This document shows, one piece after another, positions 21,653 to 34,783 of a DNA stretch of 40,142 bases; within the stretch, counting starts at the first letter, position 1; each line of letters starts with the position of its first letter. The stretch is from positions 1 to 40,142 of the forward strand of contig SLLE01000004.1 in NCBI GenBank assembly GCA_007134225.1, given 5' to 3'. The stretch comes from Tindallia sp. (lineage in GTDB: Bacteria; Bacillota; Clostridia; Peptostreptococcales; Tindalliaceae). Made by a program: the position numbers and the translations under genes. Below the pieces are notes generated by a model. The model was not told the DNA's origin. It did not search any database and was given only the letters and a program-made list of their open reading frames with translations.

Positions 21653-21700
21653 TTAAGGCGCACAGCATTTTGGTGAAGTCATGTAAGGCAGGTGAAGAAA

Positions 21701-22954
21701 ATGGACAGGAAAGAATCCATTGTTATCGTTGGCGGTGGCGCCTCTGGCATGGCTGCTGCAGTTGAGGCGGCCCGGTATGGGGCTCCTGTGCTGATCCTGG
21801 AAAAAGAAAAAAGAATTGGGAAAAAACTGCTGGCTACCGGAAACGGTCGATGCAACTTAACAAATATGGATCCGGATCAGCGTTATTACCATGGTCAGAA
21901 CAAAAATCGAATTGAATCTGTTCTCAAACAAGTTCCAATAGAAGAAATACTGGCCTTTTTTAAGGACCTGGGAATTACCCATAAAGTGGAAGAAGCCGGA
22001 AAAGTATACCCTTACTCGGATCAGGCTTCTTCTGTGCTGGATGTTCTGATGTATGAAATGGATCGATTGAATGTAAGGATTGAAACGGAAACCAAAGTGA
22101 TGTCCATTCAACAGAAAAAGAGTGGATTTCTCATCACAACCAATCATAGGAATCGAATCGAAGCAAAAAAAATTATTCTGGCCACTGGTGGCAAAGCCGG
22201 CAGTCCTTTTGGGGCAGACGACAGTGGATATGGATTAGCCAAGAACGTCGGCCATACAATCATCAAACCCTTTCCTGCCATTGTACAGATTAAATTGCAG
22301 GAAAAATGGCTAAAGGCCCTTAATGGCGTCAAATGGCAAGGGGAAGCAGCCTTTATTGCAGATGGAGAAGTCAAACGAAAGGAAAAAGGGGAAATCCTGT
22401 TTACGGAATACGGAATATCAGGTCCGCCAATTTTGCAACTGGGTCGGCTGGCCGGCGAAGAAGGAATCAATAAGAAAGTTGCTATTGCACTTTTCCCGGA
22501 TTGGACAAAAGAAGCCATCCAGGCAGAAATCTATACCCGGCTCAGAAACTGTCCGGTAAAACCGATGGACCTTGCATTGACCGGTTTATTGCATAAAAAA
22601 ATGATCCCTGTTTTGCTTAAGTCTGCAGGTGTAGAAAAAATCGCGCGACCCTCTTCTGAAATGACGGAAATGCAGATCAATCATCTAATTCAACTTCTCT
22701 GCAACTGGGAAATGAACGTGTCCGGAACGCTTTCCTGGCAACACGCACAAGTGACGGCAGGAGGTATTGACACAAATGAGCTTTGCTCGTCAAGCATGGA
22801 GTCTTCAATGGCTCCTGGACTCTACCTGGTTGGTGAAATAATGGATGCGGATGGAGACTGTGGCGGTTATAACCTACACTGGGCCTGGTGTACGGGACTA
22901 ATTGCCGGAAAACATGCAGCAGCATCCTTATCGATGGAAAAGAGGCAGTTTTAA
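21701..22954 (+). CDS. HI0933/BaiN-type flavoprotein
   Basis: A 417-residue FAD/NAD(P)-binding protein of the HI0933 (YhiN/BaiN) family. The N-terminal dinucleotide fold is IVIVGGGASGMAAAVEAA. GNGRCNLTN and the ATGGKAG segment follow, and the C-terminal FAD-binding block is VGEIMDADGDCGGYNLHWA. All are family hallmarks. ATG 21701 is preferred because AGGTGA precedes it at suitable spacing; GTG 21692 falls inside that site. Family members are poorly characterised. BaiN acts in bile-acid dehydroxylation, but that role should not be transferred here. It abuts the next flavoprotein gene with no gap. Confidence 0.88.
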   Translation: MDRKESIVIVGGGASGMAAAVEAARYGAPVLILEKEKRIGKKLLATGNGRCNLTNMDPDQRYYHGQNKNRIESVLKQVPIEEILAFFKDLGITHKVEEAGKVYPYSDQASSVLDVLMYEMDRLNVRIETETKVMSIQQKKSGFLITTNHRNRIEAKKIILATGGKAGSPFGADDSGYGLAKNVGHTIIKPFPAIVQIKLQEKWLKALNGVKWQGEAAFIADGEVKRKEKGEILFTEYGISGPPILQLGRLAGEEGINKKVAIALFPDWTKEAIQAEIYTRLRNCPVKPMDLALTGLLHKKMIPVLLKSAGVEKIARPSSEMTEMQINHLIQLLCNWEMNVSGTLSWQHAQVTAGGIDTNELCSSSMESSMAPGLYLVGEIMDADGDCGGYNLHWAWCTGLIAGKHAAASLSMEKRQF

Positions 22955-24571
22955 ATGATACGAATCCATGAATTGAAAATATCAGCAGATCAGCAACAGA
23001 ACCTTGAAGAAGCAATTATAAAAACGCTTAGAATTTCTGCTAAGGACTTGTTGGAATATCAAGTATACAAGCGCTCCGTCGATGCCAGAAAAAAGCATCA
23101 GATCATGTTGGTATACATTGTTGATGTTAGCGTTAGGAACGAAAATGAAGTTCTAGTGCGCAACAAGAATAAAAAGGTCATAAAAAAACCTGAAGAACCG
23201 GTATTTACAGTAATAACAGGGAACCGACCGTTAGACTGCTCTCCGGTAATCATAGGCACAGGCCCGGCCGGTCTGTTTTGTGGGTTGCTGCTGGCAGAAA
23301 AGGGGTATCGCCCGATATTGCTGGAAAGAGGCTATCCGGTGGAAAAACGCGTAAAAGATGTTTATCAATTCTGGAACGATGGAAGTCTAAATCCGGAATC
23401 CAATGTTCAGTTTGGAGAAGGTGGTGCCGGCACTTTTTCTGATGGAAAACTGACAACACGAATCAACGATCCAAGATGCCGCTATATACTGAAAAGAATG
23501 AATGCTCATGGTGCGCCGAAGGAAATCCTATATGACAGTAAACCTCACATTGGAACAGATAAGCTTCGGCAGTTGGTAGTGAACATTAGAGAGTCCATTA
23601 ATCAGATGGGTGGAAGTGTCCTCTATGGACATTGCGTTCGTGGGCTTCAAATTGAAAATGACCAAATCTGTGGAATTGAGATCGACGGAAAAGATTCCAT
23701 TGAAACCTCGGTGGTCGTGGCGGCAATGGGTCACAGCGCGAGGGATTTATTTCAGTCTTTTGATGATTGTGGAGTTCCGATGGTATCCAAGGCATTTTCG
23801 ATTGGCATGCGCATTGAACATCCTCAGGATTGGATTAATCAGATCCAGTATGGGAGAAGAAAAAGCCTTTCATCGCTGGGTGCGGCAGATTATCGACTGT
23901 CATGGCACCATCCAAGGGGAAGGGGTGCATACACCTTTTGCATGTGTCCTGGAGGGATGGTGGTAGCCTCCACATCGGAGCCTGGTATGGTTGTAACCAA
24001 TGGAATGAGTGCTTATGGACGGAGGGGAAGGAATGCCAACAGTGCATTGCTGGTGTCGGTTACTCCTGAAGATTTTGAGGAAGAAGGTCCGTTAGCTGGC
24101 ATTGCGTTTCAGCGGAAATGGGAGAGAAAGGCATTTGTTTTGGGTGGAGAAAACTATTGCGCTCCTGCTCAGCGATTAGAAGATTATATTGGACAGAGAC
24201 CTTCAACACACCTGGGAGAAGTAGTGCCAACCTACCGGCCAGGAGTGACACCGGCAGACCTGTCGAACAGCCTTCCTTCTTATGCCAACGAAGTGCTGCG
24301 CGAAGCACTGATTCAATGGAATAAGAAAATGAAAGGATTTGCACTTGAGGATGCGATCTTGACCGGGGTGGAAACCAGGAGTTCTTCACCGGTTAGAATC
24401 ATGCGGAATGAACAATTGGAAAGCGATATCAGTGGTCTTTATCCGGCAGGTGAAGGCTGCGGCTATGCCGGAGGTATTATGTCTGCAGCACTTGATGGGA
24501 TTCGAGTTGCTGAAGCCATAATGGAAAAATACTGCGCAGGGAGGTGGAGAGATGGAAATTATTATGTCTGA
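22955..24571 (+). CDS. COG2509-type FAD-dependent dehydrogenase
   Basis: A 538-residue flavoprotein. A small N-terminal domain of about 95 residues precedes the dinucleotide-binding motif IGTGPAGLFCGLLLAE. Then come NVQFGEGGAGTFSDGKL and, near the end, PAGEGCGYAGGIMSAALDGI, matching the uncharacterised FAD-dependent dehydrogenase group COG2509. No substrate is known. ATG 22955 follows AAAAGAGGCAG at the very end of the preceding gene. Its last 20 bases overlap the start of the CC/Se selenoprotein gene, indicating coupled translation and possibly a shared redox role. Confidence 0.88.
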   Translation: MIRIHELKISADQQQNLEEAIIKTLRISAKDLLEYQVYKRSVDARKKHQIMLVYIVDVSVRNENEVLVRNKNKKVIKKPEEPVFTVITGNRPLDCSPVIIGTGPAGLFCGLLLAEKGYRPILLERGYPVEKRVKDVYQFWNDGSLNPESNVQFGEGGAGTFSDGKLTTRINDPRCRYILKRMNAHGAPKEILYDSKPHIGTDKLRQLVVNIRESINQMGGSVLYGHCVRGLQIENDQICGIEIDGKDSIETSVVVAAMGHSARDLFQSFDDCGVPMVSKAFSIGMRIEHPQDWINQIQYGRRKSLSSLGAADYRLSWHHPRGRGAYTFCMCPGGMVVASTSEPGMVVTNGMSAYGRRGRNANSALLVSVTPEDFEEEGPLAGIAFQRKWERKAFVLGGENYCAPAQRLEDYIGQRPSTHLGEVVPTYRPGVTPADLSNSLPSYANEVLREALIQWNKKMKGFALEDAILTGVETRSSSPVRIMRNEQLESDISGLYPAGEGCGYAGGIMSAALDGIRVAEAIMEKYCAGRWRDGNYYV

Positions 24572-24842
24572 GAAACTGAAGCACTATCTCAAGAAAAAAA
24601 ATATCCGGAACTTGACCGTGGAGCAAGTGGAAATTAAACGCTGCTGACTTGGTCCAAATCTTCCTTCGGTGAAGGAAGGAGAACCCAAATCACCAGAGAG
24701 CTATACGGTTGTTGAAACGGATCATATCTACGTATACATTGATAAAATGATTGTTTTTAAACGAGAAACCATCAACATGGATCTTCGGAAATTCTTTTTG
24801 ACTCATGAGATTACCATCGATGGAGTGGATATAACTTACTAA
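24552..24842 (+). CDS. CC/Se motif selenoprotein, in-frame TGA read as Sec
   Basis: A 96-codon gene interrupted by TGA at codon 32 (24645-24647). Reading TGA as selenocysteine gives IKRC-U-LGPNLPSVKEG, where Cys-Sec replaces the Cys-Cys of the small CC/Se family I remember from Clostridia. The frame continues to TAA 24840-24842 with well-behaved coding sequence (SYTVVETDHIYVYIDK, then TINMDLRKFF). A bacterial SECIS-like hairpin follows the TGA directly. ATG 24552 is preceded by GGGAGGTGG and overlaps the COG2509 gene by 20 bases. A conventional ORF caller would split or miss it. Role unknown; a redox or metal-binding function with the preceding flavoproteins is inference. selA, selB, selC and selD are not in this window. 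Confidence 0.85.
24648..24688 (+). promoter_or_regulatory. bacterial SECIS-like element
   Basis: Immediately after the TGA, CTTCCTTC (24660-24667) and GAAGGAAG (24671-24678) form a perfect 8-bp stem with loop GGT. Lower pairs TTGG (24649-24652) with CCAA (24685-24688) extend it. The apical G/U lies 20-22 nt after the UGA, within the range known for SelB-binding bSECIS hairpins. Confidence 0.8.
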
Positions 24843-24880
24843 AAAAGGACTTCTCCCCGGCTGGGGAGAAGTCCTTTTCA
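24843..24880. terminator. bidirectional terminator after the selenoprotein gene
   Basis: AAAAGGACTTCTCCCC (24843-24858) pairs perfectly with GGGGAGAAGTCCTTTT (24863-24878) around GGCT. A/T tracts flank it on both sides; it also serves the convergent prolyl isomerase gene. Confidence 0.9.
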
Positions 24881-32672: not shown

Positions 32673-32727
32673 CAGCTTCGAAAGGTGTGATGCCATTTCC
32701 GATGATAAAACTGAATAGCAAAACCAA

Positions 32728-32882
32728 GCGCCTGAACTCATGATTTTTAAGAGTTGACGAGGAACAGGGAGTATCGAGAAATCGGCGGATACCCTGCGGT
32801 GACATCACCACCGAAAGAGAAACCACAAAACTGGCAAGTGATTGGCAGTACAAAAGGTTTTGGGTGAATGCCTGTGACAGCA
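32728..32882 (+). ncRNA. glmS ribozyme/riboswitch
   Basis: A glucosamine-6-phosphate-dependent self-cleaving ribozyme. The core is recognisable: AAGCGCC with the predicted cleavage between A32727 and G32728, GAACTC pairing with GAGTT (P1), then GACGAGG, TATCGAG and AATCGGCGGATACC. The stem ctGCGGTGAcatcaCCACCG, CTGGCA/TGGCAG pairing and GGTTTTGGGTGAATGCC follow. It sits 71 bases before the glmS start. High glucosamine-6-phosphate triggers cleavage and lowers glmS mRNA, a known feedback in Firmicutes. Confidence 0.92.
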
Positions 32883-32953: not shown

Positions 32954-34783
32954 ATGTGCGGAATTGTAGGATATATAGGAGAAGAGCAATCGGCTCCAAT
33001 ACTGATAGAAGGACTTCAGAAACTGGAATATAGGGGATATGACTCAGCTGGGGTGGCCATTTACTCAAATGACGGAATTATCGTAAAAAAATTCAAAGGA
33101 CGTCTGGCGGTGCTCGAAGAACATTTAAATAAAAATCGGATATCCGGAACTCTGGGCATTGGTCATACCCGTTGGGCAACCCATGGAGAACCGAACGACA
33201 TCAATGCGCATCCTCACTCCAGTTACGGAGGAAACATTGCGGTCGTTCACAATGGGATCATTGAAAACTACATGAAACTGAAAGAATGGTTAACCAGTGT
33301 CGGAACAGAATTCATCACCGAGACAGATACAGAAGTAATTGCCCATCTGGTAGAATACTATTACGAAGGAGATCTGATTGAGGCTGTTCAAAAGGCCGTT
33401 CACCGAATGGAAGGTGCTTATGCCATCGGAGTTATTTGTAAGCATCAGCCAGATATGCTAGTTGCCGTTCGTAAGGACAGTCCACTGGTGGTAGGGATTG
33501 GCCAGGGAGAAAACTTCATTGCATCTGACATTCCTGCGTTGCTCAAATACACTCGCGATGTCTATTTTCTGGAAGACGGTGAAATGGCGGTACTGACAAA
33601 AGAGCATATAGATATTTTCAATGAACTTGGAATGCCTATGGAAAGAAGCGTTTTCAAAGTTACCTGGGACTTGGAATCTGCTGAAAAAGGCGGCTATGAG
33701 CATTTCATGCTTAAAGAGATGCACGAACAGCCAAAAGCAGTGCGGGACACCCTGATGCCACGCCTTGATGATACCAATCGCATTGTCCTTAATGAACTGA
33801 GTCTGACCCCGGAACAACTTAAAAAATTCAATAAAATTGTCATGATTGCCTGTGGAACAGCCTGGCATGCTGGTCTTGTTGGTAAAGCAGCTATTGAACG
33901 ATTTGCCCGTATTCCGGTGGAAGTGGAAATAGCATCAGAGTTTCGATACAGAGACCCTTTTGTGGATGAGAATACACTGCTGATTGCAATCAGTCAATCA
34001 GGCGAAACGGCTGATACGCTGGCTGCGCTCAGAGAGGCCAAAGCAAGAGGTGCTCACATAATGACAATCACAAATGTGGTGGGGAGTCGTATCTCCCGAG
34101 AGGCGCAGGACGTGTTTTACACCTGGGCGGGACCTGAAATTGCGGTTGCTTCCACCAAAGCTTATATCACTCAGGTTGTGGCCCTCTATCTGCTGGGACT
34201 TTTTATGGCTGAATTGAAAGGTGTAATGAGCCGGGATGAAGTGGCAACGATGGTGGAAGAACTGATAACCATGCCGGATAAAATTCAGCATATTCTTGAT
34301 CATCAGGAAACCATTCAGGAAACGGCTAACAAACAACTCAACCAAGATCATGCGTTCTACATCGGACGGGGATTGGATGACTATACAGCGAGAGAAGGCT
34401 CTTTGAAGTTAAAGGAGATCTCTTATGTTCACTCAGAAGCCATCGCAGCCGGCGAACTGAAACATGGAACGATAGCCTTGCTGGAAGAAGGAACGCTGGT
34501 GGTAGCTATGGCAACACAGGAACGCCTATACGATAAAATGCTGTCTAATATGAAAGAAGTGAAGGCCAGAGGAGCTTACGTGGTGGCGGTGACGAAGGAA
34601 TCACTTAAAAAGGAAGTGGAACAGTCAGCGGATATTGTACTGAGCATTCCGAATTCGTCGGATATCCTAACGCCTATCTTATCAGTGGTACCGCTCCAGC
34701 TATTTGCTTATTATATGGCTGTTGCCAGAGGAGCCGACGTTGATAAACCGAAAAACCTTGCAAAAAGCGTAACGGTAGAATAA
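32954..34783 (+). CDS. glmS: glutamine-fructose-6-phosphate aminotransferase (isomerizing)
   Basis: A 609-residue enzyme of normal length that makes glucosamine-6-phosphate from fructose-6-phosphate and glutamine. C2 (MCGIVGYIG) is the glutaminase nucleophile. The N-terminal half carries GHTRWATHG and HNGIIENY; the two SIS domains carry CGTAWHAGLV and SQSGETADT. The C-terminus ...PKNLAKSVTVE is canonical. ATG 32954 follows AAAGGAG. Expression is set by the ribozyme upstream. The product is also the trigger of that ribozyme and the substrate of GlmM. Confidence 0.97.
   Translation: MCGIVGYIGEEQSAPILIEGLQKLEYRGYDSAGVAIYSNDGIIVKKFKGRLAVLEEHLNKNRISGTLGIGHTRWATHGEPNDINAHPHSSYGGNIAVVHNGIIENYMKLKEWLTSVGTEFITETDTEVIAHLVEYYYEGDLIEAVQKAVHRMEGAYAIGVICKHQPDMLVAVRKDSPLVVGIGQGENFIASDIPALLKYTRDVYFLEDGEMAVLTKEHIDIFNELGMPMERSVFKVTWDLESAEKGGYEHFMLKEMHEQPKAVRDTLMPRLDDTNRIVLNELSLTPEQLKKFNKIVMIACGTAWHAGLVGKAAIERFARIPVEVEIASEFRYRDPFVDENTLLIAISQSGETADTLAALREAKARGAHIMTITNVVGSRISREAQDVFYTWAGPEIAVASTKAYITQVVALYLLGLFMAELKGVMSRDEVATMVEELITMPDKIQHILDHQETIQETANKQLNQDHAFYIGRGLDDYTAREGSLKLKEISYVHSEAIAAGELKHGTIALLEEGTLVVAMATQERLYDKMLSNMKEVKARGAYVVAVTKESLKKEVEQSADIVLSIPNSSDILTPILSVVPLQLFAYYMAVARGADVDKPKNLAKSVTVE

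Follow-up and report, generated by a model that had tools for sequence, protein, structure and literature searches.

A predicted CC/Se motif selenoprotein of Tindallia with an IscA/SufA-like model fold

The gene and its surroundings

The sequence analysed, here called the window, is a 40,142-nucleotide stretch of a Tindallia genome, and all window coordinates given below refer to its forward (+) strand. A candidate selenoprotein gene of the CC/Se motif family (NF041239) lies at 24552–24842 and would encode 96 residues with selenocysteine (Sec) at codon 32, as judged by profile match, homologues and selection on codons. The start codon is the ATG at 24552–24554, and direct reading of the sequence places a Shine-Dalgarno-like stretch, GGAGGTGG, closely 5' of it (24540–24547; GGAGGTG). 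Codon 32 is an in-frame TGA (24645–24647), after which 64 codons follow before the TAA at 24840–24842. Together TGC TGA (24642–24647) would specify the pair Cys31-Sec32, at a column where Cys homologues also align. The resulting motif is C-U-L-G-P, the protein contains no other cysteine and it lacks a C-terminal CxC. A preliminary description of this DNA had proposed this frame and ribosome binding site, and both were found when the sequence was checked. An open stretch of 64 codons 3' of a stop is by itself not rare; it is read as coding here because homology supports it.

The gene directly 5' (22955–24571) encodes an FAD-dependent oxidoreductase with a PF21688 C-terminal domain. It overlaps the start of the selenoprotein gene by 20 nt, and the ordinary TGA stop at which it ends lies inside that start. 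Before it stands a gene for a TIGR00275 FAD-binding enzyme (HI0933-like, 21692–22954). The oxidoreductase gene is found directly 5' of the selenoprotein gene in six Tindallia/Anoxynatronum-type genomes (this one and G001–G005), in five of which, G004 being the exception, the TIGR00275 flavoenzyme precedes it. Directly after the TAA, folding and sequence indicate an intrinsic terminator (24843–24878). A strong terminator at this place fits a gene end at TAA, not at TGA; being symmetric, it may serve the convergent parvulin gene as well.

Elsewhere in the window nine tRNA genes are clustered at the start of the contig (31–1020), and a glmS ribozyme (32716–32871) is located directly 5' of a glucosamine-6-phosphate synthase-like gene at 32954.

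Decoding of the in-frame TGA

The preliminary description predicted that the machinery for Sec insertion would be encoded elsewhere in the genome. A complete cluster with selD, selA, selB and selC (tRNA-Sec) in that order is present on contig C143 of the same genome, and the active-site codons of its selD themselves include a TGA. At codon 32 Sec would be inserted by the organism's own SelA, SelB, SelC and SelD, a hairpin beginning 11 nt downstream of the UGA serving to recruit SelB. Judging from sequence, we regard it as nearly certain that 24552–24842 is a single 96-residue selenoprotein gene whose UGA is decoded as Sec.

Reading of the TGA as another amino acid, whether by recoding to Trp or Cys or by a suppressor, is barely credible. 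That such codes would leave the frame open is no specific argument for them, and four other genes in the window, including the FAD oxidoreductase directly upstream, end at TGA, so that TGA is a normal stop here. In addition a bSECIS and a tRNA-Sec are present, and paralogues carry Cys, the usual counterpart of Sec, at the aligned position.

A second alternative is that the TGA is a true stop, which would leave a 31-residue peptide and a separate or decayed downstream frame, either a pseudogene or a 57-residue ORF starting from the GTG at 24669. A standard ORF listing yields exactly these two ORFs. We nevertheless consider a true stop very improbable, since six close orthologues retain both the TGA and the frame that follows it, with a strong synonymous bias downstream, Cys homologues read straight through the position, the GTG at 24669 has no evident Shine-Dalgarno-like stretch and the sel machinery is in the genome. 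The six orthologues, each from another genome, are 50–77% identical to the focal protein, and five further homologues at 34–43% identity also keep the TGA. In comparison with a same-genus orthologue from Tindallia sp. MSAO_Bac2 (L058), pN/pS, given as non-synonymous/synonymous differences per site, is 0.09/0.82 upstream of the TGA and 0.17/0.77 downstream of it. Seven other orthologue pairs give the same direction, with non-synonymous below synonymous differences. By these comparisons the codons on both sides of the TGA are under purifying selection.

The frame continues past the TGA in 77 aligned Sec-type members of the family. Another 13 members have no TGA at the motif and nearly all of them are Cys-Cys, for example L011, L034 and L071; Sec and Cys members share one alignment column here, with Cys standing at the Sec column. 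Homologues that end at the TGA, which the preliminary description had named as counter-evidence, were not found among these 77 and 13 members.

The bSECIS hairpin

Folding, covariation and bSECIS rules point to a bSECIS hairpin at 24659–24679, composed of eight Watson-Crick pairs and a closing U-G pair. Its arms, CTTCCTTC (24660–24667) and GAAGGAAG (24671–24678), enclose the loop GGT (24668–24670), and the distance from UGA to loop is 20 nt. The perfect 8-bp hairpin at SECIS distance reported in the preliminary description is thus present as described. According to Fig. 2 of PMC13188914, a bSECIS has a loop of 3–9 nt, a stem of 4–16 bp, G in the first two loop positions, a distance of 16–37 nt from the UGA and a minimum free energy of -7.5 or lower. 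The values here lie within all four constraints of that figure: a 3-nt GGU loop, 9 bp, 20 nt and -13.1 kcal/mol for the 46-nt fold.

The energy of the hairpin is unexceptional on its own (z -1.1), and 27 of 200 dinucleotide shuffles fold equally well. This test is not significant by itself, and therefore tests of covariation and of synonymous recoding were used instead. Among 10 homologues that share the same stem register, 90% of the cells pair and both sides change in five of the eight pairs; the covariation score is 0.45, whereas shuffling gives 0.18, with none of 500 shuffles reaching the observed value, and sliding gives no more than 0.19. The count is limited to these 10 same-register members, a choice that somewhat favours structure, and a wider set of 28 members mixes two stem registers, one with the 3-nt loop and one shifted by a codon.

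Compared with synonymous recodings, the 48 nt that follow the TGA fold more stably, with a mean z of -1.09 over the 77 Sec members treated as independent, and a window 60 nt further downstream in the same members gives a mean z of -0.05. The signal is weaker (-0.40) in the 13 members without TGA (Sec vs Cys p 0.036, members again treated as independent). The significance of the hairpin comes from conservation, not from energy. In an Rfam scan the window matched tRNAs and the glmS ribozyme alone, and no SECIS family.

Family members and relatives

With the TGA read as Sec, the protein matches NF041239, the "CC/Se motif family (seleno)protein" model, with 56.3 bits (cut-off 40) over model positions 1–91 of 91, and this is the small CC/Se family of Clostridia that the preliminary description named. 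A Pfam search gave no usable match. The statement that gene callers would miss or split the gene is true of a generic caller; the family itself, however, is already modelled and named at NCBI. NF041239 is included in Table 1 of an inventory from 2026 that covers 119 selenoprotein families (PMC13188914); the family is therefore already catalogued, in NCBIfam and in that table, and the focal protein is a new, solid member of it.

A six-frame search of 198 related genomes detected the family in 87 of them. Most members have a single in-frame TGA, and some have none. The genome studied here has three members: the focal gene, a TGA member on contig C162 (L010, G000:C162:8487-8750) and, on contig C109, a Cys-Cys member that scores just below the NF041239 cut-off. 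The C162 protein has a C-terminal CLCGG. Such a CLCGG or CLCSGG tail, which recalls the CxC of IscA, occurs in CC/Se members L010, L063–L065, L071 and L072, and these tailed members may occupy an intermediate position between the A-type carriers and the focal protein.

One orthologue (L116, contig C4 of G042) is 77% identical and has nearly the same SECIS, but is found in a genome of another family and in a different gene context. This placement may reflect horizontal transfer or a misbinned contig.

A subgroup of NF041239-type relatives (L146–L153, in G083, G120, G066, G110, G085, G042, G157 and G090) has TGATGA at the motif, which would be read as Sec-Sec. The tandem TGA is kept in these eight genomes, which belong to four GTDB families, and most have a hairpin downstream, of the type CCATC-AGGTCT-GATGG. 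At the threshold used, the 394 genomes of the order yielded no Cys-Cys member of the subgroup; two weaker matches without TGA, L154 and L156, may be outliers. The table of 119 families in PMC13188914 contains no UU motif, and a literature search limited to open-licence papers gave nothing relevant on adjacent Sec-Sec in bacteria. These relatives would allow the question to be asked of how one SECIS supports two successive Sec insertions.

Predicted fold

An AlphaFold model built from seven sequences has a pLDDT of 83 and a pTM of 0.76. The only confident PDB matches of this model are of the IscA/SufA/HesB type, with Foldseek probabilities up to 1.00, and the best are IscA, SufA, AQ_1857 and HI1723. 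The matched PDB entries include 1r94, 2d2a, 1x0g and 1s98, and VIA Z is 7.6–8.7 over about 90 residues. Foldseek E-values are modest, the best being 1.4e-3 with no match at E<=0.001, and sequence identity to the aligned chains is only 5–20%. A search of PDB sequences with the family profile gave nothing meaningful. Profile comparison with the HesB-like selenoproteins gave 92.8% over 89 columns, with Sec placed on Sec, and reversed and column-shuffled profile controls reached at most 4.8%.

Model and profile together support the view that the CC/Se family has the IscA/SufA (HesB) fold and that Sec32 aligns to the Sec of HesB-like selenoproteins. This assignment is not stated for the family in the accessible text of PMC13188914, in which the word IscA does not occur.

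The same genome also encodes a HesB-like selenoprotein (L122, G000:C133:10320-10565), with one TGA and the motif UAGP, which scores above the cut-off for PF01521 and below that for TIGR01911. It is the only PF01521 match found, and no Sec-free A-type carrier was seen in the assembly, which is 96.5% complete.

Possible function

Small and rich in beta structure, the product would adopt the IscA/SufA (HesB) fold, with Cys31-Sec32 at the position of the first cluster-ligand cysteine of A-type Fe-S carriers. The A-type Fe-S carriers (PF01521) have three ligand cysteines, including a C-terminal CxC. Because the focal protein lacks the C-terminal Cys-x-Cys, it is unlikely to bind a cluster in the manner of IscA, and a thiol-selenol role in redox or metal handling is more likely. 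Our preferred reading, held tentatively, is that the vicinal thiol-selenol pair serves a redox function or binds a soft metal or sulfur/selenium species.

It is rather unlikely that the protein is a working A-type Fe-S carrier in which Cys31/Sec32 would serve as ligands for a cluster or for iron, possibly within an oligomer. The fold and the position of Sec at the HesB cysteine would suit such a role, as would the C-terminal Cys-x-Cys-Gly-Gly kept by the C162 paralogue of the same genome, but the focal protein itself has neither another Cys nor the C-terminal CxC, and a Pfam search gave it no match to PF01521.

Under the preferred thiol-selenol reading, the selenoprotein may partner the upstream FAD-dependent oxidoreductase in the Tindallia/Anoxynatronum-type lineage, as suggested by gene order. 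The oxidoreductase was not found beside distant homologues from Alkaliphilus (L120) and Petromonas (L121), so this partnership may be local or accidental. Chemistry and partnership taken together we would put forward as a possibility somewhat short of an even chance.

On balance we think that CC/Se proteins form a large, fast-diverging branch of the HesB/IscA fold, with two-residue active sites that are Cys-Cys, Cys-Sec, Sec-Cys or even Sec-Sec, the last encoded by two consecutive UGA codons with a single hairpin after them; the fold would then have turned from Fe-S carriage to thiol/selenol chemistry. The focal gene is a well-supported addition to a widespread, uncharacterised selenoprotein family that generic callers break in two at the TGA. 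With a fold assigned, this "hypothetical" family poses a testable question, namely what use an IscA-like protein makes of Cys-Sec without the C-terminal cysteines.

Comparison with known systems

The focal protein resembles the CC/Se family NF041239 in its full-length match above cut-off, its Cys/Sec pair, its small size and its clostridial distribution. It differs from the entry in Table 1 of PMC13188914, which gives CxxU as the family's motif around Sec, in that Cys and Sec are adjacent.

With the A-type Fe-S carriers IscA, SufA and ErpA (PF01521) it shares the fold, by AlphaFold model and PDB comparison, but two of their three ligand cysteines, those of the C-terminal CxC, are absent from it.

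The HesB-like selenoproteins (TIGR01911/NF038090) are separated from the focal protein by its Cys before Sec and its lack of a C-terminal Cys. Its score for NF038090 is 16 bits, where the cut-off is 85, and no match to TIGR01911 (cut-off 66.35 bits) was reported at E<=10. The two have in common the same predicted fold, Sec aligned on Sec and the motif U-x-G-P, which is listed for HesB-like proteins in PMC13188914 and takes the form U-L-G-P in the focal protein.
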